Positions 245 to 20,135 of a stretch of 20,135 nucleotides of DNA are shown in pieces. Each line of letters begins with the position of its first letter. Position 1 is the stretch's first letter. The notes under the pieces were generated by a model. It ran no database searches, was not told where the DNA came from, and saw nothing but the letters and a program-made list of their open reading frames with translations. This DNA is from a virus. The translations under genes were made by a program, and so were the position numbers. The DNA lies in the IMG/VR virus record IMGVR_UViG_3300010883_000696, positions 1 to 20,135 of that record. One strand, written 5' to 3'.

Positions 245-3200
245 TTATCCTAGTGCTAGGGCCATCGGTATTGAGTTGTCGGCGACCGCTTCCCATACCG
301 GGTTAGCGCCTGATCCCTTTGTGGTTAAAACATATCCAGAAGTTGATTGAGACAGGCGAGTCGGCGCGCCTGATACTCCATAAATTAAAACGTCGCCTTG
401 TGTGCCGTCTTCCAATTCAGTAAGCGTCACCGCGTTCACCGCAAGTTCAGATGACCCGACAGCCCCTGCCGCTATTTCACTCGCGGCAACACTATCGGCA
501 GCAAGGTGTGCGGCAGTGATCGCGCCTGTTCCGATTCGTGCTGCATCAAGTGTTCCACTTGCAATGTTATCAGCGTTGGTCGTGTCGGTTGTTGCGCTGG
601 TAGCCAAACCACTGATCTTCGACGTGGCTATTGCCGCACTGGCGTTGATGTCGGCATTGACGATGTCGAGGGCTGCTAATTTTGACTTTGCTATAGCCGC
701 TGATGCGTTCACATCGGCATTAACAATATCGAGCGAGGCGAGTTTAGTTTTTGCAATCGCCGCACCAGCATCCACATCCGCATCAACAATCGCAAGCGCG
801 GCTAGTTTAGATTTTGCTATTGCGGCACCAGCATCCACATCCGCATCAACAATCGCCAGTGCTGCTAGTTTCGTTTTTGCTATTGCGGCTGATGCGTTGA
901 TGTCCGCATTAACAATGTCGAGGGCTGCTAACTTAGTCTTAGCAATCGCCGCACTTGCATTGATGTCCGCATTAACAATTGTGCCATCGGTAATCTTCGT
1001 TGACGTGATCGATCCATCGGCGGGTGTTGCATCTGCCCACGTCGCTAACCCATCCGCGTCGGATTTAAGAAAGTACCCGTTAGTCGGGGAGGATGTGATC
1101 TTTATCTGACCATTAATTTCTAGCTTCGCATCAGGGTCGGCAACGCCTATACCAATGTTCTCAGCGGCAGTGATGGTCATCGCCAACGCATCTGCGTTGT
1201 CATCAATACCTGTTGATGCAAAGTTACTGGCGGAGTAGGTGTTGAAATTGATGTTGCCACCGAGTTCCGGTGTCGAATCATCAACAACTGCCGCGATTCC
1301 CGGCGCGATACCAACGAACGAGGAACCCGAGTAATACTTAAGTTGATTGCCCGTTGAATCGTACCAGAGGTCGCCAGCGGCAGGGCTTCCGGGCGCACTC
1401 GACGCAATCGTATATTCGTCGCTATACCGCTGAATCGAAGCCTCGTTGGTGGCAACCGTTGTTATGTCGCTAGATATTCCCGCGAGAGTGTTCATGTTGG
1501 TGACATTCCCGCTTGTGCCTAGCACGTTCATGTCATTCACAACATCTGCTGTTCCCAAGGTGTTGAGGTCGGCCACAACGTCTGCCGTTGCCAAGGTATT
1601 CATATCGACAACTACATCAGCCGTACCGAGGGTATTCATGTCGGCAACAACGTCCGCCGTTCCCAGCGTGTTCATATCGGCAACCGCATCAGCCGTGCCT
1701 AACAATCCAATTTCCGTTGCCTTACCCGCCACGGCAGTAATGTCGGCACTTATACCCGACAGGGTGTTCATATTTGTGACGTTGCCTGATGTGCCGAGAA
1801 CATTCATGTCGTTGACTACATCGGCTGTACCGAGCGTGTTCAGGTCGGCAACCACGTCTGCGGTTCCCAAAGTGTTTAGATCAATTACGACATCGGCTGT
1901 GCCTAAAATTGCCATATCGGCAACAGCGTCTACGGTGCCAAGTCTCCCTACTTCGGTAGCCTTCCCCGCTACGGCAGTAATGTCGGAACTGATTCCCGAC
2001 AGAGTGTTCATGTTCGTGACATTCCCACTGGTGCCAAGAACATTCATATCATTTACAACGTCTGCCGTTCCAAGTGTGTTCAAGTCGGTGACTACATCCG
2101 CTGTTCCGAGCGTATTCATGTCGGCAACTATGTCAGCCGTTGCCAGAACATTCATATCTGAAATCACATCGGCAACTGCCAGCGTGTTCATATCTGATAT
2201 GACATCAGCAATCGCCAATAGATTCATATCAGCAACGATGTCGGCGGTTCCGAGGAGCGCCATGTCTGCCACCGCATCAGCGGTTCCAAGGCGACCCACT
2301 TCCGTTGCCTTGCCCGATACAGCAGTTATGTCAGCACTTATTCCTGACAGCGTATTCATGTTGGTTACGTTACCGCTCGTTCCCAGCACATTCATGTCGT
2401 TAACTACATCCGCCGTTCCTAAAGTGTTTAGATCACTGACTACGTCCGCCGTTCCTAAAGTGTTCAAGTCGGTCACTACATCGGCGATTGCTAGGATGGC
2501 CATGTCCGCAATGACATCGGTTGTGGCAAGCAACGCCATATCAGCAACAACATCTGCCGTTCCGAGCAGATTCAAATCAGTCACCACGTCAGCAGTTCCG
2601 AGAGTGTTCATATCGGCAACGACATCGGCTGTGCCGAGAATCGCCATGTCTGCCACTGCGTCGGCAGTTCCCAGACGCCCTATCTCTGTTGCCTTCGCCG
2701 CGACCGCACCTATGTCAGTTGCATCTGCGGCCACGGAAGTTATGTCCGAACTGATACCCGCAAGAGTATTCATGTTCGTCACATTGCCGCTTGTACCCAG
2801 CGTATTCATGTCGGCAACAACGTCCGCTGTGCCGAGTACATTCATATCAGCAACGATGTCTGCCGTAGCCAAAATGTTCATGTCGCTCACAACGTCTGCT
2901 GTAGCGAGTGTGTTCGCATCCGCAACAAAATCGGCAGTCGCAATAAGATTCAAATCAGTTACAAAATCGGCAGAGGCAACGGTGTTTAGGTCTGAAACGA
3001 CATCCGCTGTTCCTAAAAGCGCCATGTCAGCAATCACATCCGCTGTTCCAAGGAGGCCTATTTCGGTAGCCTTACCAGCTACCGCCCCAATATCAGTTGC
3101 ATCTGCCGCGACTGCGGTGACATCACTTGAAATCGCATTCACCCCCGTCACGTCCGCACTGATCGAAGACACATTCGACACAGCCGCACTGATCCCGCTG

Positions 3201-4210
3201 AGAGTGTTGATGTGACCCTGATCTGTCGTGGTTGGTGTTGTTCTTAACCAAGTGGTCGTGGCTAAGTCATACACCATCTTGACGTTATTTGTCGTATTAA
3301 AATATTGCGCCCCGTCTACCAACGCATCACCGTCATTATCAAGCGTCGGGTCTGAGGATTTGGAGCCTAACTCCAGATCATTGAAATCATCATAAGCGGC
3401 GGCGGCACTGGCGCTTGATGCGGCTGATGCCGTTGCGCTCGAAGCCGAAGAGGTTGCCGAGGACGCAGAATTCGTTGCCTGAGTCGTTGCGATGACGGCT
3501 TGAGCCGTTGATATCGTGGCTTGGGCGGTAGAGGTCGCTTGGCTGGCCGCGCTTGCCGTCGCGCTGACAGCAGAAGCGGTAGCGCTGGCACTGCCCTTTG
3601 CGGCATGGTGCAAGGCCGAGTAACTGGTTCCATCAACAGTGTCATCTTCTGCGCTGATGGCCCACTCTTTAGAGGCGCCCGCTGCAGCGGTGTCGGTAAT
3701 GTTCGTTCCACCGACAGCCCAAGCCTTCGAGGAACTATCACTACCAGTAACATAGCCATCCGTTTTCTTGGCCCAGTTTCTGGCCTCCTCAACATCAACC
3801 ATCAACTCCCAGTTGGCCGCTGATAGGTCAGTAGCCCAAGTGCCAGAAGTGTGTGCGACGATGCAGATGTAGAGACTGTCTGTGCTTGCGCCAGACGAGC
3901 CATCAACGACAACATCGCGTAATGAAAATGCTGTTGCTGTCGCCCATGTCCCTTGCCATAGGCCAACACCTGTTTGAAGGTCTAAAGCGCCCCCGGAACC
4001 GAAGCCTATAATGCTCCCAGCGCGAGTGGCGGCGTTGGCCGTTATCTCAAAGTCTGTAGATTCATTGGGGAGTTTAATCGCCCTCTTAACATTGAGTTCG
4101 CCAGTGTCCCAAGCAGTGACCAAAGCGTCAAAATCCGACTTAACAACGTCGCCCCTTGCAAGAGTCCCCTGTGTGTAAGAGCCCTGTCTAGTGTAATAAT
4201 CGTTAGCCAT
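245..4210 (-). CDS. Repetitive tail fibre protein (1321 aa)
   Basis: This is probably the adhesin or fibre that contacts the host surface. The N-terminus (residues 1-200) carries motifs common in phage tail fibres: EEARNWAKKTDG at about 142-152, SSKAWAVGGTNITDT at about 160-174 and KEWAISAEDD at about 181-190. Residues 203-272 are almost only Ala, Ser and Thr. Residues 386-907 hold 36 copies of a 12-residue repeat in five super-units. A linker with APGSPAAGDLWYDSTGN and PELGGNINF motifs follows, then an IGIGVADPDAKLEINGQ motif. Residues 1077-1202 are six 21-residue repeats, and the C-terminus is Ala/Thr-rich, ending in MALALG. No intramolecular chaperone or enzymatic domain is evident. The ATG follows the hub gene's stop directly, with TAGG about 7 bases upstream. 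Fibre identity is solid. Which end attaches to the particle is inferred from the family, where the N-terminus normally anchors. Confidence 0.92.
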   Translation of the reverse strand: MANDYYTRQGSYTQGTLARGDVVKSDFDALVTAWDTGELNVKRAIKLPNESTDFEITANAATRAGSIIGFGSGGALDLQTGVGLWQGTWATATAFSLRDVVVDGSSGASTDSLYICIVAHTSGTWATDLSAANWELMVDVEEARNWAKKTDGYVTGSDSSSKAWAVGGTNITDTAAAGASKEWAISAEDDTVDGTSYSALHHAAKGSASATASAVSATASAASQATSTAQATISTAQAVIATTQATNSASSATSSASSATASAASSASAAAAYDDFNDLELGSKSSDPTLDNDGDALVDGAQYFNTTNNVKMVYDLATTTWLRTTPTTTDQGHINTLSGISAAVSNVSSISADVTGVNAISSDVTAVAADATDIGAVAGKATEIGLLGTADVIADMALLGTADVVSDLNTVASADFVTDLNLIATADFVADANTLATADVVSDMNILATADIVADMNVLGTADVVADMNTLGTSGNVTNMNTLAGISSDITSVAADATDIGAVAAKATEIGRLGTADAVADMAILGTADVVADMNTLGTADVVTDLNLLGTADVVADMALLATTDVIADMAILAIADVVTDLNTLGTADVVSDLNTLGTADVVNDMNVLGTSGNVTNMNTLSGISADITAVSGKATEVGRLGTADAVADMALLGTADIVADMNLLAIADVISDMNTLAVADVISDMNVLATADIVADMNTLGTADVVTDLNTLGTADVVNDMNVLGTSGNVTNMNTLSGISSDITAVAGKATEVGRLGTVDAVADMAILGTADVVIDLNTLGTADVVADLNTLGTADVVNDMNVLGTSGNVTNMNTLSGISADITAVAGKATEIGLLGTADAVADMNTLGTADVVADMNTLGTADVVVDMNTLATADVVADLNTLGTADVVNDMNVLGTSGNVTNMNTLAGISSDITTVATNEASIQRYSDEYTIASSAPGSPAAGDLWYDSTGNQLKYYSGSSFVGIAPGIAAVVDDSTPELGGNINFNTYSASNFASTGIDDNADALAMTITAAENIGIGVADPDAKLEINGQIKITSSPTNGYFLKSDADGLATWADATPADGSITSTKITDGTIVNADINASAAIAKTKLAALDIVNADINASAAIAKTKLAALAIVDADVDAGAAIAKSKLAALAIVDADVDAGAAIAKTKLASLDIVNADVNASAAIAKSKLAALDIVNADINASAAIATSKISGLATSATTDTTNADNIASGTLDAARIGTGAITAAHLAADSVAASEIAAGAVGSSELAVNAVTLTELEDGTQGDVLIYGVSGAPTRLSQSTSGYVLTTKGSGANPVWEAVADNSIPMALALG
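605..982 (-). repeat. Six tandem 63-base repeats (21 residues each) in the fibre C-terminal region
   Basis: Six in-frame copies run without gaps, encoding residues 1077-1202. The consensus is DIVNADINASAAIAKTKLAA plus Leu. The N-A-D and A-A-I-A-K-x-K-L positions are invariant or nearly so, while Asn/Asp alternate at positions 4 and 8. The last copy has drifted (ATSKISGL). Repeats of the NADINASAAIA type are frequent in phage fibres. Confidence 0.93.
1490..3055 (-). repeat. Array of 36 copies of a 36-base repeat (12 residues) in five super-units
   Basis: The consensus is x-L-G-T-A-D-V-V-x-D-M-N, with A for G, L for M and A for the final N as the common variants. Reading leftward, super-units of 8, 9, 8, 5 and 6 copies lie at 2768-3055, 2354-2677, 2006-2293, 1766-1945 and 1490-1705. 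Linkers of 30, 20, 20 and 20 residues of the type TLSGISADITAVAGKATEVG separate them. Each unit opens with a copy like RLGTADAVADMA (unit 1 has LLGTADVIADMA) and closes with LGTSGNVTNMN. Copies, linkers and total length agree exactly (522 residues). Third codon positions differ widely between copies that encode the same peptide. Confidence 0.95.
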
Positions 4211-9776: not shown

Positions 9777-10754
9777 TTAAACCGCGCTGTCCCACAAGAC
9801 ACAACGTGCTTGTGCGGCGGTTGTATGAACGAGGCCAGCACCGCCCAAATAATACCAGGCGATCCCCCGCGATCTTCCGAAGTCGGTCGGAATTTTCCCT
9901 CGAACCTCTTCGGGAATAGCGACAGCCTCTGCGACAGTGTCAGAACCCAAGAAGACAGCCCAATCGGACTTAGCATTTGACCACGCAGCAGCCGCAGTAC
10001 CCATGCCAGCCGCCGCACCGCCTTTGGCGCGGTAAGTCTGCTCAACAAAACGGACACCTTCATAACGCCCTGTCTCACCATTTCGAATCATCTGAAAGCC
10101 TGTCTCGACGTACTGCGAGATGGATTCCAAATTATTCTTCATGGTGCGGAACGTAGTGGGCCAACCAATGCAGAAATAATCGTCCCCGCTATAAGCAGGA
10201 ATGTTTCTCTCTTTCATTGTGTCAACGACGGCTTTGATGTGATCTTTGCCTAGCGCGACATTGTTGGTTGCCGTTGCGGTTCCATTGGTGGTCAGCACAA
10301 CCGTATCGGTTGCCGTACCGGCAGTAGGTACAACCCGTAGAGGCGTAGCATCAATCTGGTCAGCAACCAGATCGTCTAGCACTTGGGCCGCATCTATCTT
10401 TAGGACCTTATGTATGATCTCCTTAACAGGTTGCTCAGACAAATCGTCCAGTTTTGACGAAAACGGAATACTATTTCCGTACTCGCCGATGGTCATGGTT
10501 CCCTGCGAGATGGTGAAATTTGTTTCGGCAATCGCCGTACCTTCAGTCAACGCCGCACCAGCAGTAGCAACAGTTGAGTACACATTCCAATGGAACGTGT
10601 CGCCCTTACTGAGCCCTTGATGCGCCGCATCCTTTACGTCGGCAAACTGACGAAACTTCACTATCGGACGCAGAGAAACACGTAACTCTTTACTTAAATT
10701 TAGGGAGTACATATAGCCACCGAGGCTACTGGTTCCCCATACTTGTCCAGCCAT
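9777..10754 (-). CDS. Major capsid protein, N4-gp56 family (325 aa)
   Basis: This is the main shell protein of the head. Features typical of the N4-gp56 capsid family: an N-terminal arm with RPIVKFRQFADVK; the segment ALTEGTAIAETNFTISQG at about 70-87; GEYGNSIPFSSKLDDLSEQP; a spine-like helix with KVLKIDAAQVLDDLVADQ; and a C-terminal half with GDDYFCIGWP, NGETGRYEGVRFVEQ and GRSRGIAWYYLGG. Length fits the family. The ATG has AAGGA nine bases upstream, the best-looking ribosome site in the block, as expected for the most abundant product. It follows the scaffold gene by 38 bases. Confidence 0.93.
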   Translation of the reverse strand: MAGQVWGTSSLGGYMYSLNLSKELRVSLRPIVKFRQFADVKDAAHQGLSKGDTFHWNVYSTVATAGAALTEGTAIAETNFTISQGTMTIGEYGNSIPFSSKLDDLSEQPVKEIIHKVLKIDAAQVLDDLVADQIDATPLRVVPTAGTATDTVVLTTNGTATATNNVALGKDHIKAVVDTMKERNIPAYSGDDYFCIGWPTTFRTMKNNLESISQYVETGFQMIRNGETGRYEGVRFVEQTYRAKGGAAAGMGTAAAAWSNAKSDWAVFLGSDTVAEAVAIPEEVRGKIPTDFGRSRGIAWYYLGGAGLVHTTAAQARCVLWDSAV

Positions 10755-10792
10755 GAGTGTGTTTCCTTAGTCGAAAAAATGAAGAATGGAAA

Positions 10793-11761
10793 TTAGACTA
10801 ACTGACCTCTTTGTTGTCGCATTTCCGTAATGATGTCGGAGTAAGTTGGTTCGGTTTCATCCTCGCCTAAGTGAGCGCGAGCATTGACCGGAGCAACCTC
10901 ATCCATGTCCTGCTTTCTTTGTTGTCGTCCTTTATCGGCTTTCCCGCCCAACTGCTCAACGTACTTGAACAGCCAATCCTTGGCGTAGGAACCACACTCC
11001 TGCATGATTTCCCACGGATCACGGGTAGGGTCGTTTTGATAAAGTTCCGCAGAACGGCGGTCTGCAACAGCAAGCAATGAAGGATCAGCAACTATCTCTG
11101 GATACTCGTCATGAAACATCTTGACGGCTTCCTGTCGCCTAACTTCATAACCCTGTTCGCGGGCCGCTTTCTCCTCTTCCCGCATTTCCGCCTTGGTTCT
11201 CTCGATAATTGACTTAACGTCAATCGATTGAGCCTTTGGCTTCTCTGCGGCGCGAATCTGCTTAAGCATTTGGTTTGCTTTCGCTTCATCGCCCTGAAAG
11301 AGGGCATCGTGGTATTGACCATAAAGGTCGTCAGTCGCGTCCGAATCGGATGGCGATACTTCTTCACCAGCGTCCGAAGATGGCTGGCTTGTTTGCGCTT
11401 CTAATTGAGCGCGGAAAGCATTCAGTTTCGCTTCATATTCAGCCAACTCACGTTGGCGTTCAGCGGCTTCCTGAAGGCGTTTATCGGCAGATGAGTTCTT
11501 TTGATACTGCGCTAGAACATCGCCGTAAGGAATTTCGACTTCTTCACCATCAACTTTCGCACTGACGTACCACTGATCGTCCTTGCGTAATAATGGCGTT
11601 AAAGGCTCATTCCTAGTCGGCTCATCTTCCCTATACTCGTCATCATAGGCTTCGTGACCCTCATGTACCGTAGCCGCAATCCGTTCCAACGCAGATTGCT
11701 GCTCCGATAAATGTTCCCCCTTGGTTTCAGAAACGTCCTGTTGGATAGCATCATCGGCCAT
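10793..11761 (-). CDS. Capsid scaffolding protein (322 aa)
   Basis: It probably forms the internal scaffold for head assembly and is lost or cleaved afterwards. It is strongly acidic and hydrophilic with no cysteine except one near 256. The first 60 residues are disordered (EYREDEPTRNEP). A KVDGEEVEIPYGDVLAQYQ beta/helix motif at about 69-87 is common in scaffolds of gp56-type phages. A coiled coil spans about 91-125 (RLQEAAERQRELAEYEAKL), then a Ser/Asp spacer. A long Glu/Lys helix follows at about 180-215, and a C-terminal helix region after it. The location directly before the capsid gene is the standard one. AAGGGG lies nine bases before the ATG. Confidence 0.85.
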   Translation of the reverse strand: MADDAIQQDVSETKGEHLSEQQSALERIAATVHEGHEAYDDEYREDEPTRNEPLTPLLRKDDQWYVSAKVDGEEVEIPYGDVLAQYQKNSSADKRLQEAAERQRELAEYEAKLNAFRAQLEAQTSQPSSDAGEEVSPSDSDATDDLYGQYHDALFQGDEAKANQMLKQIRAAEKPKAQSIDVKSIIERTKAEMREEEKAAREQGYEVRRQEAVKMFHDEYPEIVADPSLLAVADRRSAELYQNDPTRDPWEIMQECGSYAKDWLFKYVEQLGGKADKGRQQRKQDMDEVAPVNARAHLGEDETEPTYSDIITEMRQQRGQLV

Positions 11762-11766
11762 AACAA

Positions 11767-12048
11767 TTAACCCCTTGTTATCTCTTGCAGAGATTCCTCT
11801 GCGTGTTTTGCTTGATTGATAGCCTCTTCAAGCCAAGTAATGACTAAAGAGGGCAATCGAGCGCGGAATTGAAGTTCACGAATGGTTTCTACGTCCTCTG
11901 GATTTGCGAGAGTCCAAGAATCAAATGCTTCCTGCTTGGCTTTATCCGCTCGTCCGAGGATGTACCGACCTACCTTGGAACTTAGAAATTCTTTTGTTTG
12001 AAGCCCAAGTCGGGCCTCCGCAATTAATAATTCTGCTTCGTCAGTCAA
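11767..12048 (-). CDS. Conserved phage protein of unknown function between portal and scaffold (93 aa)
   Basis: An all-helical, Glu/Ala-rich protein: LLIAEARLGLQTKEFLSSKVG, RYILGRADKAKQEA, then EDVETIRELQFRARLPSLV and a terminal helix LEEAINQAKHAEESLQ. Proteins with this A-R-L-G ... S-x-V-G-R-Y-(I/L) pattern are common at this locus in gp56-type phages, but I know no assigned function. Translation starts at TTG (12048) within a TTGA overlap with the stop of the 50-aa gene. There is no competing ATG nearby. It ends 5 bases before the scaffold ATG. Confidence 0.8.
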   Translation of the reverse strand: MTDEAELLIAEARLGLQTKEFLSSKVGRYILGRADKAKQEAFDSWTLANPEDVETIRELQFRARLPSLVITWLEEAINQAKHAEESLQEITRG

Positions 12049-15255: not shown

Positions 15256-16893
15256 TCAATACGAAGGCAAAGCATCTGGCTCAAGATCGTCGCTACCCAA
15301 CAACTGCGGCGGAGCGGCTTTGATGTCATAAATTCTGGACATTGCGTCCAACATATCGACGTGCACTGCGGGGAAGAGGTTGTATTCGTTATCAATCATT
15401 CGTTGAGTAACGTCATACAGCCTGCCAGTTTCGTCTTTCTGCTTCAGCGGCCTCACAATGAGTGCCGCATCGCCAACCTCAAACGCCTTACGCTGGAGCG
15501 ATGTTAGTTGGTCTGAAGAAGGGGCCAAGAAGAAGCGCCAGTTCTCAAAGTCGGGCTGTAATCTCTGTACGCGATCCCGTTTAGAACCTGGCCCTTCTCT
15601 TGGCCACGCTAGTTCCTCGATGGGGAAATGACCATTCTCTATACGCATCATTTCCTTAAAGTGTTCAATGTCAGAATCCTTGCCGTATCTTTCATACCCA
15701 ACCTTCACCACCAGGATTCCCGGTTGCCGCAACCACCTGTTGCGAATCTTCTTTACGGCTTCCCAACGCTCTTTCAAGTTCATTCGATGGCAAAGGCCAT
15801 CCAGCAGATACTTGTTAAAGGCGCTGTCAATGCCAATAACGGCTATAGCCGTTCTATCCGAAGATTGCTTCTTTGAGTGCGCCGGGTCACAGAGGATGTA
15901 GATATTCAGAACGCGAGGTCTGATTTCTGCGCGACGAATCCATTCTGGATCGAAAACCTGCTCTGAACCCGCAATCGGGTTCTGTAACATTTGACAGGCC
16001 AGTACATACTGCCCCATCGAGGATTTTTTCTTATCCCATTCAGCTTCTGATAAGAGAATGGGCTTTCCATCGGGGGAACCTGAATCAGTGGCGGGATAAA
16101 CTCTCGTTTGTGTTCCCCGCTCAATCAATTCACGGTAGGTATCCGCATAGTGATACCGCGTCCCGATATACCACTCCCTGTTCTGACCACCAGATAAGTT
16201 TTGCGACAGGTCTAGTGCTTCTGTCGTCTTGGCGATCTGATCAGGTGTGTTGACGGAGTCTCTTGTGACAACGTCATCATAAATTCTTAAGTCATAGTGG
16301 CGGGAAATAGGTTGCCCATCCACCAGCCCCCATGCTTCTACTGTTGCTTCCTTGGGGTTCGACTTACGTTTGACAATAATTCCCGAATCTTCACTCCACT
16401 GCGGGGAGTCCTGCCGTGGGTTCTGGTAGCAGATGTCCGGAAATAATTCGCGCAAAAATTCGTTGATCTCAAATTCACGCTTGATCTGCTTCAAGAAACC
16501 TTTAGCGATAGGCCGGGTGTGGGAAAAAATACCTATCGTGGTATTGGGGTTCCTTAAGATTTCCTGAATCGTTCCAGCATAGGTAATGATGGTCGATTTG
16601 TAATGACCCCTAGCCCACAGGTCTAGGACGCCATCAGGAGTAGCCTCAACCTCACGACACCGATCATAAAGCCACGGATGAACCGCATCCTTGCGCCCCA
16701 AAATAATGCACAGCAAAAACCACCGGTCGGCTTTCGCCAGTTCTCTCAGAAGTTCCGGGTCATTTTGCTTTTGAAGAAGGTTCTTATAAAAAGTTCCGGC
16801 TTGGGCAAGCGTAGCCGTGGGTAAATAATTTTTCGCTCGGTCAATAAACTGATCACGATTCAGCTTCGCTTTTATGACGACTTCCTTTTCCAT
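15256..16893 (-). CDS. terL: Terminase large subunit (545 aa)
   Basis: ATP-driven DNA packaging motor and nuclease. The Walker A-type motif is WARGHYKST at about 93-101, followed by the helix TIITYAGTIQEIL. The Walker B-type segment is DLRIYDDVVTRD at 201-212, and coupling motif candidates follow. The C-terminal RNase H-like nuclease begins at YILCDPAHSKKQSSDRTAI (D336 and D346), continues at VKVGYERYGKDSDIE, and ends with HVDMLDAMSRIYD (D513, D516), giving the expected acidic cluster. Length is standard. The ATG lies inside the preceding 64-aa gene (22-base overlap) with only a weak ribosome site. The portal gene lies three small genes away. No intein or truncation is seen. Confidence 0.93.
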   Translation of the reverse strand: MEKEVVIKAKLNRDQFIDRAKNYLPTATLAQAGTFYKNLLQKQNDPELLRELAKADRWFLLCIILGRKDAVHPWLYDRCREVEATPDGVLDLWARGHYKSTIITYAGTIQEILRNPNTTIGIFSHTRPIAKGFLKQIKREFEINEFLRELFPDICYQNPRQDSPQWSEDSGIIVKRKSNPKEATVEAWGLVDGQPISRHYDLRIYDDVVTRDSVNTPDQIAKTTEALDLSQNLSGGQNREWYIGTRYHYADTYRELIERGTQTRVYPATDSGSPDGKPILLSEAEWDKKKSSMGQYVLACQMLQNPIAGSEQVFDPEWIRRAEIRPRVLNIYILCDPAHSKKQSSDRTAIAVIGIDSAFNKYLLDGLCHRMNLKERWEAVKKIRNRWLRQPGILVVKVGYERYGKDSDIEHFKEMMRIENGHFPIEELAWPREGPGSKRDRVQRLQPDFENWRFFLAPSSDQLTSLQRKAFEVGDAALIVRPLKQKDETGRLYDVTQRMIDNEYNLFPAVHVDMLDAMSRIYDIKAAPPQLLGSDDLEPDALPSY

Positions 16894-17812: not shown

Positions 17813-18036
17813 CTCGGCACCCTCGGATTCTGTACCTTGCCTATGGTTTCCTGTCTGGCCTGATTGATTTGCTTAATGGCATTTTCCGTAGAGTCTTCCA
17901 TCTCGTTACCCTTTTTAATCACTCTCAAGAGTTTTTGAGTCAGCGGATCAAACTCCCCTTCCGGTCTTGGTTCTTCTACCGGATCTTTTGCGGTGTACCC
18001 AACAGTTCTGCCTTTAGGCGCTACATTGATTGCCAT
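17809..18036 (-). CDS. Hypothetical small charged protein (75 aa)
   Basis: It starts MAINVAPKGRTVGYTAKDPV, has the acidic Pro-rich stretch EEPRPEGEFDPLTQ, then an amphipathic helix (KLLRVIKKGNEMEDSTENAI, KQINQARQETIG). No cysteine, no membrane segment. It shares a single base with the preceding gene (TAATG) and four with the next (ATGA). Unknown family. The helical C-terminal half could mediate oligomerisation. Confidence 0.72.
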   Translation of the reverse strand: MAINVAPKGRTVGYTAKDPVEEPRPEGEFDPLTQKLLRVIKKGNEMEDSTENAIKQINQARQETIGKVQNPRVPR

Positions 18037-18311
18037 TACTTTATTGACCTATTTTTTGATCTGGACATCACCCGCAAATTTCCTGTGCTGTTATCTTTGG
18101 GGTTTCGATTGGCGTGGTGAATATCTTTCCCATCGCCTTTACTGACCCGTCCTGTTTTGGTTAATTTTCGGCGGGCCTTATTTCTGGAACTTCTCTCAGC
18201 AACCGCTTTGGGGGAGGAATGAAATTTTTTGTATTCATTTTTGTAATTTCGGGATTTACCCCCACCCGTTTTGTATTCAGAAGCCGTTCTGGCGCGAATT
18301 AAACCAGCCAT
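18036..18311 (-). CDS. Small basic HNH-like protein (91 aa)
   Basis: The protein is very basic (Lys/Arg-rich). Its centre, SSRNKARRKLTKTGRVSKGD, leads into GKDIHHANRNPKDNSTGNLR (61-80) and VMSRSKNRSIK. This is the layout of a small phage HNH-type protein: the D-I-H-H pair (63-66), N69/N74 and the N-L-R of the third element at 78-80. The final histidine expected in a complete HNH site is replaced by Asn/Arg (SKNR), so nuclease activity is uncertain. HNH proteins are often encoded next to terminase and can assist packaging cleavage. The start shares one base with the stop of the 44-aa gene (TGATG), with AAGAG about 12 bases upstream. Confidence 0.8.
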   Translation of the reverse strand: MAGLIRARTASEYKTGGGKSRNYKNEYKKFHSSPKAVAERSSRNKARRKLTKTGRVSKGDGKDIHHANRNPKDNSTGNLRVMSRSKNRSIK

Positions 18312-18445
18312 CAGTAGGAACTCTTCTTTTTCTTGTAGCCGGACGCATAGGCGGCTTTCGCCTGTTTTTGTGCCTGCTGCTTAGAGGGGTAGGTATTACC
18401 TTTGGAACCCCATTTGTATCCGCTTTTCGATTTTTTAATTGGCAT
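18311..18445 (-). CDS. Small Lys-rich protein (44 aa)
   Basis: From ATG at 18445 the peptide is MPIKKSKSGYKWGSKGNTYP, SKQQAQKQAKAAYASGYKKK, KSSY. The K-W-G-x-K-G-x-x-Y and A-Y-A-S-G-Y-K elements match a short peptide often found in phages. It resembles a tiny nucleic-acid-binding or packaging peptide, but function is not known. An in-frame TTG at 18565 would give 84 aa, but its added 40 residues come from the hairpin and direct-repeat region and look non-coding. A weak AGAGA sits about 6 bases upstream and is the right arm of a hairpin. Confidence 0.7.
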   Translation of the reverse strand: MPIKKSKSGYKWGSKGNTYPSKQQAQKQAKAAYASGYKKKKSSY

Positions 18446-18448
18446 CAA

Positions 18449-18464
18449 ATTCTCTATGGAGAAT
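18449..18464 (-). promoter_or_regulatory. Hairpin over the ribosome site of the 44-aa gene
   Basis: ATTCTC (18449-18454) and GAGAAT (18459-18464) form a perfect 6-bp stem with a 4-base loop, ending 3 bases from the ATG at 18445. The Shine-Dalgarno-like AGAGA is inside the stem, so folding could lower translation. The stem is AU-rich and weak. Confidence 0.35.
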
Positions 18465-18533
18465 AACTCCCCCTTGAAACCCGCATGTTTATTGACTTTT
18501 TCAGGGTACGTCCAGGCTTGTTTTATTTGGTTA

Positions 18534-18559
18534 CTTCTCAGAAAGAACTTTATGAGAAG
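18534..18559. repeat. Inverted repeat in the 18446-18665 intergenic region
   Basis: CTTCTCA (18534-18540) pairs with TGAGAAG (18553-18559). Inside it AAAG and CTTT can pair as well, with one mismatch between the two parts. It overlaps the first copy of the 25-base direct repeat. No T-run follows on either strand. The rest of the 220-base gap holds only short repeats (TATCATTACT at 18570-18579 and 18597-18606; a GGGG/CCCC stem at 18583-18595). I see no gene in it. Confidence 0.5.
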
Positions 18560-18682
18560 GAACAACCCCTATCATTACTAGCGGGGAATGGCCCCATATC
18601 ATTACTGATACCGAATGAACCCGTGCACTGGTGAGCGGGTACTCAATCGCGTCCTCTAAAGTACTTTATGAGAAGGAACAAC
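18542..18682. repeat. 25-base direct repeat pair (18542-18566 and 18658-18682)
   Basis: Both copies contain ACTTTATGAGAAGGAACAAC preceded by AAAG plus one differing base (A or T), giving 24 of 25 identical positions, 116 bases apart. The right copy spans the stop and last codons of the 74-aa gene. The left copy is intergenic, so part of a gene end appears duplicated. Confidence 0.8.
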
Positions 18683-18890
18683 ATTCTTTGGTAGAGCACT
18701 GCCTTTTCTTGTCACGTTTTTCAGCACGTTTGTATCGCGTCCTGCAATCACACTTCCATTCGTGATGGACGCATCCCTTCACATAAACATGCAATAGATT
18801 TGCCTCTTCCTCCAACAGTCGTATACGCAACTTGATGTAGGAAAGAAGAGAAGAATTGGGGTCTATGGTTTGTCCATAGGCCCGAAACAA
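18666..18890 (-). CDS. Small Cys/Lys-rich protein (74 aa), unknown function
   Basis: A TTG at 18890 follows the upstream stop with no gap. The protein is MFRAYGQTIDPNSSLLSYIK, a helical charged middle (LRIRLLEEEANLLHVYVKGC), and a basic Cys-rich end with CVHHEWKCDC, then RAEKRDKKRQC and KECC. Six cysteines and two adjacent histidines in the last third could bind a metal ion. The stop codon lies in the palindrome TAAAGTACTTTA and within the direct repeat. The start is uncertain, as no ATG lies in frame. Family not recognised. Confidence 0.6.
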   Translation of the reverse strand: MFRAYGQTIDPNSSLLSYIKLRIRLLEEEANLLHVYVKGCVHHEWKCDCRTRYKRAEKRDKKRQCSTKECCSFS

Positions 18891-19127
18891 TTAACTAAGT
18901 ACTCGCCTTTTTAGGGGTGTATAGCGATTAAGAATATCTACCCCTACCCTACCTATTACTAAACCGTATTGTTCCGCTATGCACCCCCCTTTTAAGGCTT
19001 CTAGGGGGTATTTCTTTAGGTAGTAACAGATAGATTCGCCCTTGTTATATGTTCTTAGAGCCCAATCTTTATCGAGTGGGCATATAGGGGCTGAACAAGC
19101 CTCAAAGTGAGTGCATTCTGAAATCAT
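18891..19127 (-). CDS. Small Cys-containing protein (78 aa), CSAPICPLD type
   Basis: The N-terminus MISECTHFEACSAPICPLDK has the pattern C-x5-C-x4-C, followed by DWALRTYNKGESICYYLKKY and a C-terminal variable part. I recall short proteins with C-(S/N)-A-P-(I/L)-C-P-L-D and G-E-x-(I/V)-C-(Y/F)-Y-L from phage and mobile elements, generally of unknown function. The cysteines suggest metal binding. ATG at 19127 is preceded by GAGGA with almost no spacing, so the site is atypical. It is the first convincing gene left of the 630-base gap and therefore the likely start of the structural transcript. Confidence 0.75.
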   Translation of the reverse strand: MISECTHFEACSAPICPLDKDWALRTYNKGESICYYLKKYPLEALKGGCIAEQYGLVIGRVGVDILNRYTPLKRRVLS

Positions 19128-19364
19128 TCCTCAGTGGGATTCGATGGTTATACCGTATGAGCCGCTAAAGGGGGTAGCTGTGGGCGCGGTCGGTGTTTAT
19201 CACGCCCCCGCCGCGAAATATGCTCCCGCGTGAGACTCCTTTTTGTTGCGAGGTGCGGACTACTGTTAGTCAGCAACACTCCGAACAACCCCAACGGATA
19301 CCGGCGGCGATGTGATGGGAGTGTGATGGGGTGCGCCTAACCTGCTCGCAGGCCTATCGGTTGC

Positions 19365-19380
19365 CACTTGCTACCAAGTG
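19365..19380. repeat. Perfect hairpin CACTTG-CTAC-CAAGTG
   Basis: Six-base perfect stem with a four-base loop in the gene-poor region. It is not followed by a T-run on either strand, so it does not look like a terminator. It could be a protein-binding palindrome or RNA structure. Confidence 0.5.
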
Positions 19381-19490
19381 CTTGCCAGTAACGCTGTTCC
19401 TGTCAGTAGTGCAGGCGGATAGGGTGGCGCACTATGATATTTTCACCCCTTCCCATTTCCATCCCGTTAACGCTGGGCTACCCCTTGCTG

Positions 19491-19502
19491 TAAAGTACTT
19501 TA
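19491..19502. repeat. 12-base palindrome TAAAGTACTTTA, second copy at 18657-18668
   Basis: The identical 12-base perfect palindrome occurs at 19491-19502 and at 18657-18668, where it contains the stop codon of the 74-aa gene. Flanks differ, so the shared part is the palindrome itself. Dimeric DNA-binding proteins commonly use sites of this kind. A regulator is not encoded in the window. Confidence 0.6.
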
Positions 19503-19509
19503 GACAATC

Positions 19510-19532
19510 CCCTATGTAACGCACGTATAGGG
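19510..19532. repeat. Inverted repeat CCCTAT / ATAGGG
   Basis: CCCTAT at 19510-19515 and ATAGGG at 19527-19532 with an 11-base loop. It lies 8 bases from the TAAAGTACTTTA palindrome. Alone it would be a weak structure. Confidence 0.4.
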
Positions 19533-19624
19533 CTTGTACTGTCCTATGGGTATATTGCAACTTACCCCTTGCACTACCCGCTTATCTGCCGCCCTGAGTC
19601 TATTCGACGTTCCGCCGTAAGTGC

Positions 19625-19652
19625 TTGTTATCCTTATGTTTTCTGTTGTCAA
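19625..19652 (-). promoter_or_regulatory. Candidate sigma70-type promoter reading leftward
   Basis: On the minus strand a perfect TTGACA (19652-19647) is followed after 16 bases by TAACAA (19630-19625), which matches only three of six positions of TATAAT. It would transcribe toward the structural genes, with a leader of about 500 bases before the 78-aa gene. The -10 is poor, so this is tentative. Confidence 0.3.
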
Positions 19653-19754
19653 GTCTTTTATGCTATGGTGGCCACTGTTAAGGCGTGTTGTCGTGTGTTG
19701 TTAAGTGCACGTTACATACCATGAAACTACCATAACCCGCCCATGTTAACGCCA

Positions 19755-19991
19755 CTATACGTCGTCATAGTAACGACCATAAACAAACAACAAGAGATTA
19801 AGACCAAAAAACATACCCAACCGATCTACCTCGAATGACAACATAGTCCCGCGCAGGAGAAGGCAAAGGGCTAGGGTCGCCAAGCACCACTCACCCACGG
19901 GGGTAGGTGCGCCTAGCAAGCAAGCGACTAAAAACATTAAAACGTGCGGCGACGCAATCGGCCAGTTAAGTCTGCGGCGAACGTCCCACAA
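19755..19991 (-). CDS. Possible small membrane protein (78 aa)
   Basis: From TTG at 19991 the frame gives MWDVRRRLNWPIASPHVLMF, then a hydrophobic stretch LVACLLGAPTPVGEWCLATL with a Pro-containing turn, ALCLLLRGTMLSFEVDRLGM, and FFGLNLLLFVYGRYYDDV. It reads as two or three membrane segments (about 17-29, 38-48 and 60-71) with basic residues at the N-terminus and acidic ones at the end. That pattern is unlikely by chance. No clear ribosome site precedes the TTG, and the next in-frame ATG (residue 19) would cut into the first membrane segment. It is separated from the downstream block by the gene-poor region. Function is unknown. Confidence 0.5.
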   Translation of the reverse strand: MWDVRRRLNWPIASPHVLMFLVACLLGAPTPVGEWCLATLALCLLLRGTMLSFEVDRLGMFFGLNLLLFVYGRYYDDV

Positions 19992-20035
19992 GTCTTAAGG
20001 CGCAATCAGTACATGCGACCGGCGGCGAAGTGGAA

Positions 20036-20063
20036 CCCCATCCGGTACATCCTAAGGATGGGG
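20036..20063. repeat. Inverted repeat CCCCATCC / GGATGGGG near the right edge
   Basis: An 8-base perfect stem (20036-20043 with 20056-20063) and 12-base loop. An alternative smaller hairpin CATCC-TAA-GGATG (20048-20060) shares the right arm, so two mutually exclusive folds exist. No T-run follows. Confidence 0.5.
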
Positions 20064-20082
20064 ATTATCTCAAATGAATTAG

Positions 20083-20106
20083 TGCAAAGCATTCGAGTGC
20101 TTTGCA
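20083..20106. repeat. Inverted repeat TGCAAAGCA / TGCTTTGCA
   Basis: A perfect 9-base stem (20083-20091 with 20098-20106) around a 6-base loop TTCGAG. It lies 20 bases from the previous inverted repeat in 144 bases (19992-20135) without a supported gene. Neither side has a T-run. It might be a regulator site or an RNA structure. Confidence 0.5.
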
Positions 20107-20135
20107 GTAACCCATTATCAATTGCGAGATCAAAC

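Follow-up and report, generated by a model that had tools for sequence, protein, structure and literature searches.

What is the role of the gene-poor stretch of some 630 bases (positions 19128-19754) near the right end of this viral DNA, which an earlier note had proposed as the most likely place for a late promoter, a small RNA or another cis element such as an origin? The window (the whole stretch of DNA analysed) is the linear virus record IMGVR_UViG_3300010883_000696, 20,135 bases in length, and its genes are read leftward. Matches to PHROG families identify a portal, a terminase large subunit and a major head protein. By portal, the closest named phages come mostly from Vibrio, with about 34% identity at best; by terminase they are VpV262 and ICP2 (about 26%), and the group is therefore far from cultured phages. 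The virus is an uncultivated tailed phage, probably a marine one, a habitat suggested by these named-phage neighbours.

The motifs cited in the earlier note are all present as strings within the interval, as confirmed by string check:

19365-19380, arms CACTTG/CAAGTG
19491-19502, TAAAGTACTTTA
19510-19532, arms CCCTAT/ATAGGG
19668-19675, GTGGCCAC
19652-19647, minus strand, TTGACA

The palindromes do not exceed chance: perfect inverted repeats with arms of at least 6 and loops of up to 14 number three in the interval, against 1.75 ± 1.39 across 200 dinucleotide-shuffled copies and a mean of 2.6 for 30 further 627-base stretches taken from the window. None of the 190 fetched loci, a set that excludes the window's own copy (L001), contains an exact match to TAAAGTACTTTA, CACTTGCTACCAAGTG or CCCTATGTAACGCACGTATAGGG. 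GTGGCCAC, which is 8 bases long, is present in 11 of these loci; the relative G001 (IMG/VR 3300032278_000015; 48,388 bases) has it only outside the homologous gap, at 23075. With counts at chance level and three of the four strings absent from relatives, the palindromes were rejected as operators or as an origin. Nor is the TTGACA supported as a promoter element, the promoter scan pairing no -10 with it. Two copies of the 12-base palindrome TAAAGTACTTTA lie in the window, at 18657-18668 and 19491-19502.

The description of the stretch as gene-poor holds, but the interval was drawn too short on its right side: non-coding DNA reaches at least 20135, and no frame with a coding signature was found in 19128-20135. 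The gap yielded no conserved protein frame, and a tRNA/tmRNA scan of the DNA found none. Conservation across relatives is limited to an element at the left edge of the interval, which is not among the motifs that had been named, and one block to the right of the interval that is shared with one relative:

19121-19255, minus strand, conserved candidate late-promoter element of about 135 nt, whole (nhmmer profile, 13 lineages)
19256-20135, no strand, remainder of the intergenic region, mostly not conserved
19876-19987, no strand, 112-nt block with 70% identity to the gap of G001 on its early side (E 6e-9)

Palindromes picked by eye in the open gap are thus at chance level, and the conserved signal is at the edge of the gap.

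The counterparts of window positions 19128-19254 were detected by a low-stringency search, at the same place in several relatives. An nhmmer profile built from nine lineages finds one strong site in each of them. When each lineage was removed in turn (L036 and L018 together), leave-one-out E-values ranged from 7.8e-18 to 5.6e-12, the window matching at 19254-19126 on the minus strand with E 9.6e-13. Lineages outside the training set also match (L006, 1.3e-14; L007, 1.3e-13; L133, 5.4e-23; L125, 7.7e-10), and L006 has a weak second partial match (918-945, E 0.61). Among the 31 family contigs, defined as those with the family's HNH gene at 67% identity or more, 16 carry the element in single copy per stretch searched, representing 12 lineages, or 13 with the window. 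Its distance to the HNH gene is about 1.5 to 3.4 kb in the 16 contigs and 0.8 kb in the window. The element was not found in the remaining 15 contigs, 13 of which start less than 2 kb upstream of HNH, and most of these 13 may not reach the site. Three of the 13 (L024, L026 and L139), however, extend 1.7-2.0 kb upstream of HNH, a distance at which the element is present in some relatives, and the other two contigs (L137 and L011) extend 3.6 and 3.8 kb.

Further afield, the profile finds no element in any of 96 loci: 13 that carry a homologue of g155, an early gene of G001, 25 with a terminase at about 50%, 49 with a distant HNH gene, 6 from named phages and 3 from genomes. The element is therefore confined to one family. 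The named phages with a similar HNH gene (6 of 46 records) also have different annotated neighbours. A host or prophage location was sought in genome_contigs and rejected, as only three distant HNH matches (49-50%) came up, each without the element. A DNA search of 50,697 phage records, using window positions 18000-20135 and the element regions of two relatives, gave at most one weak match, i.e., 39 bases inside a gene of a Pelagibacter phage (E 6e-3).

The position of the element is best seen in G001, which carries homologues of the window's late genes. Its homologous gap of 882 bases divides a leftward early arm (AAA ATPase, metallopeptidase/VWA protein and two genes without Pfam match) from a rightward late arm. 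All seven element contigs that also hold early-arm genes (six lineages) have the element between the arms.

On the late strand, 17 of 146 columns in the 13-row alignment are invariant, TATAA among them. The family order is TTCGCAA, GGAGTC..CGCG, CGTGATAA, a -30 box (GGGGGCTTTA-like), 12-13 nt, a -10 (TATAAC/A) and CTSAGG, with the order of the boxes fixed and their spacing near-fixed across rows. In the window these are, from the distal end towards the first late gene:

19246-19252, minus strand, distal box CTCGCAA (family consensus TTCGCAA in the 13-row alignments)
19221-19241, minus strand, block AAGGAGTCTCACGCGGGAGCA with a CGCG core (C26 and G27 of the core invariant in 13/13 rows of the alignment)
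19197-19204, minus strand, box CGTGATAA (G55, A56 and A58 invariant in 13/13 rows of the alignment)
19166-19175, minus strand, -30 box ACCCCCTTTA (family consensus GGGGGCTTTA), 13 nt upstream of the -10
19147-19152, minus strand, -10 element TATAAC (TATAA in 13/13 lineages)
19138-19141, minus strand, expected transcription start, as predicted from the -10
19128-19132, minus strand, SD-like GAGGA in the conserved CTSAGG, with the g78 ATG at 19127
18891-19127, minus strand, g78, first late-arm gene, cysteine-containing (87% identical to its G001 homologue)

The -10 variants are close to TATAAT (TATAAC in six and TATAAA in seven of the 13 lineages). With spacers of 15-19, the best match to TTGACA at the -35 position is 3/6 in one row and at most 2 in the other twelve. 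The part from the -10 to the SD scores 32.5 at the element in G001, where the next best score is 9.2; maxima in 20 shuffled copies have a mean of 10.5 and a largest value of 16.3. By eye, the AAGGAGTCTCACGCGGGAGCA block holds an imperfect dyad, CTCACG/CGGGAG.

Taken together, it is fairly likely from the sequence that this is a divergent control region separating an early from a late arm, with a late promoter at the late edge (19255-19121, minus strand). One master late promoter would fit the divergent arms, the presence of a single strong site, and a -10 that lies beside an SD-like sequence and the first late gene; to judge from copy number, it may be the only late promoter of its kind. The absence of a -35, together with the box at about -30, suggests that a phage factor would replace the -35 contacts. 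Even the identity of the element as a promoter is inferred, as are its start site, its timing and its dependence on a phage activator. The -10 (TATAAC) would be expected to be bound by the host RNA polymerase carrying the primary sigma factor, and a phage regulator would occupy the box at about -30 and the three further boxes up to about -110. The promoter would fire only after early products appear, with a start near 19140 and leftward transcription of g78, the HNH gene, the terminase, the portal and the head genes. What stands of the late promoter proposed in the earlier note is its position, between divergent arms and immediately ahead of the first late gene, and the conserved -10 and SD-like element, but not the motifs cited for it.

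Several features count against a promoter, as do the family contigs and the more distant loci that lack the element. Conserved sequence continues for about 100 nt beyond the -10 on its upstream side, taking in a long GC-rich block, and so exceeds what most promoters require; in G001, L036 and L027 the listed ORF that comes first in the late arm begins further downstream; and in the window the SD-like GAGGA lies almost on the g78 ATG, at a very short spacing. Sigma region 4 was found in none of 10 family contigs, which are fragments, and in 14/14 control genomes. Of the other searches, a promoter scan of the G001 gap found no promoter, and a scan for early-strand sigma70 promoters gave matches in three of six family gaps, at unrelated sites, while the window and the remaining gaps gave none. 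The literature searched, PMC9410871, PMC2988021 and PMC6739421 among it, showed nothing on promoters of this phage group.

Among the closest known systems are the T4 middle promoters, which combine a MotA box with a sigma70 -10. PMC2988021 gives the box as (a/t)(a/t)(a/t)TGCTTtA, at a distance of 12 ± 1 bp from the -10, and reports nearly 60 middle promoters in T4. The element resembles these in its good -10, in lacking a -35 hexamer and in having, where the -35 would be, a conserved box separated from the -10 by 12-13 nt. At the position of the MotA box, 4 of 13 rows read GGGGCTTTA, and the CTTTA of that box is common to five of the 13, including the window, with the A/T part replaced by G or C. 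In contrast to the MotA box, it is a G-run (in some rows a C-run) that precedes CTTTA; in contrast to T4 middle promoters, the element has three more conserved boxes upstream, occurs at one site in G001 and would control late instead of middle genes. A search for MotCF gave 0/10 family contigs (fragments) and was uninformative, its control likewise giving 0/14 genomes. The resemblance is one of layout and does not make the element a T4-type middle promoter. Lambdoid phages use a single late promoter for one long late operon. The element would be similar in having one late promoter and one long late operon, but its arrangement of boxes is not the one known for the lambda late promoter.

The main rival, though an unlikely one, is a packaging site of the cos type next to the terminase cluster, formed by the whole element or only by its upstream half (TTCGCAA ... 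GGAGTC..CGCG ... CGTGATAA). Terminase would then bind the boxes and cut at the GC-rich block, and the genome would end just before the terminase-side cluster. The element does lie upstream of an HNH - terminase - portal cluster, about 2.2 kb from the terminase gene in the window; each stretch searched has a single strong site, as does G001 over its full length; and in some rows an imperfect dyad can be seen by eye around the CGCG core. In HK97, the HNH protein GP74 promotes cos cleavage, and a short conserved site lies upstream of the HNH and terminase genes (PMC9410871). However, the HNH protein here matches Pfam HNH_3, and the invariant TATAA followed by CTSAGG before a gene, i.e., the -10-like and SD-like sequences by which the element differs from an HK97-type cos, are not called for by a cos site. 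All 16 element contigs run across the element and none ends inside it, the nearest contig end being 93 nt away (L025), and in G001 it is mid-contig. The contigs that cross the element are not decisive against a cos site because contigs of intracellular DNA could cross one.

A composite of two sites joined by position only, with a late promoter in the downstream half and an independent packaging, replication or partition site in the upstream half, is less probable again. The element does divide into a distal GC-rich half and a proximal half with the -30, -10 and SD; for the L027 lineage the leave-one-out profile match covers only positions 51-136, and the profile matches of L006 and L007 start at positions 25 and 21. 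Yet a TTCGCAA-like box can be aligned in 13/13 rows at near-constant spacing (in L006 and L007 after upstream extension), which counts against a composite.

The structured small RNA or replication origin that had been suggested within the 630 bases is very improbable: the non-coding stretch is long, two strong hairpins lie further right (20036-20106) and the cumulative AT skew of G001 has its maximum within the homologous gap (at 23654), but divergent transcription alone could give such a turn, the cumulative GC skew of G001 shows none in the gap, most of the 630 bases are not conserved, no Rfam match reaches the gathering level, folding energies inside 19128-19754 are ordinary (lowest z -2.0), as they are in the two 120-base stretches over the element, and RNAalifold finds three pairs in the element with no net covariation. 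One of these three pairs is changed on both sides in one sequence, and the consensus fold has -0.05 kcal/mol. GGGG/CCCC arms that by eye seem to swap between lineages were considered as an RNA hairpin in the element and rejected, since the individual folds and RNAalifold disagree.

Conserved but ordinary in kind, the element has an unusual layout for a promoter and belongs to a phage group about which little is known. As a candidate, it would be a compact late-control element for a group seen here only in metagenome contigs, and should a phage factor recognise the -30 box, a transcription activator of a new type may be encoded in the early arm. More speculatively, and with little probability attached, a lineage whose structural genes lie this far from cultured phages might have arrived at the logic of T4 middle promoters, in which a phage factor redirects host sigma and the -30 box replaces the -35. 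Here it would serve as the one master switch for late genes, joined to a packaging-type site upstream of it, and a single 135-nt element would set both late transcription and genome cutting.

On the early side, the block at 19876-19987 is possibly an early promoter or operator; its core, GCAATCRGCCAGTTAAGTCTG, matched only the G001 contig in viral_contigs. An ORF at 19755-19991 (78 aa) overlaps it and has a same-frame stretch in G001 (33 aa, 48%, E 2.8e-4). It was rejected as a gene, a frame on the opposite strand being nearly as good (E 1e-3) and third-position bias being absent; in two pieces of the shared block, differences by codon position are 4/1/3 and 5/6/5. Near the end of the window are the two strong hairpins (20036-20063 and 20083-20106, arms of 8 and 9); the segment 19755-20135 holds these two against a shuffle mean of 0.04, and the plus strand of 20000-20119 has a folding z of -3.5.

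Some features of the neighbouring genes can be added. The first late-arm gene, g78, has neither a Pfam nor a PHROG match, and the same codon is used at 58 of the 68 residues identical to its G001 homologue (85%), compared with 44-59% for six other late genes. This conservation of synonymous sites may reflect either recent exchange or a further cis element within the gene. By eye, g78 also carries ACCCCC...GGGGGT arms. The listed start of the window ORF 18311-18565 is probably too early: its homologues in L018 and L025 start with an ATG (MPIKK...) immediately past the candidate promoter element, and MPIKK is internal in the window ORF. In the left half of G001, a pfkB-family carbohydrate kinase gene and neighbouring YqaJ and ERF recombination genes are found (15677-16687 and 10593-11919). 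The window ORF 245-4210 is very long (1321 aa), with many LGTADVVADMNTLGTADVV-type repeats, and the ORF at its place in G001, which has a similar N-terminus, is 618 aa long; the number of repeats may vary.
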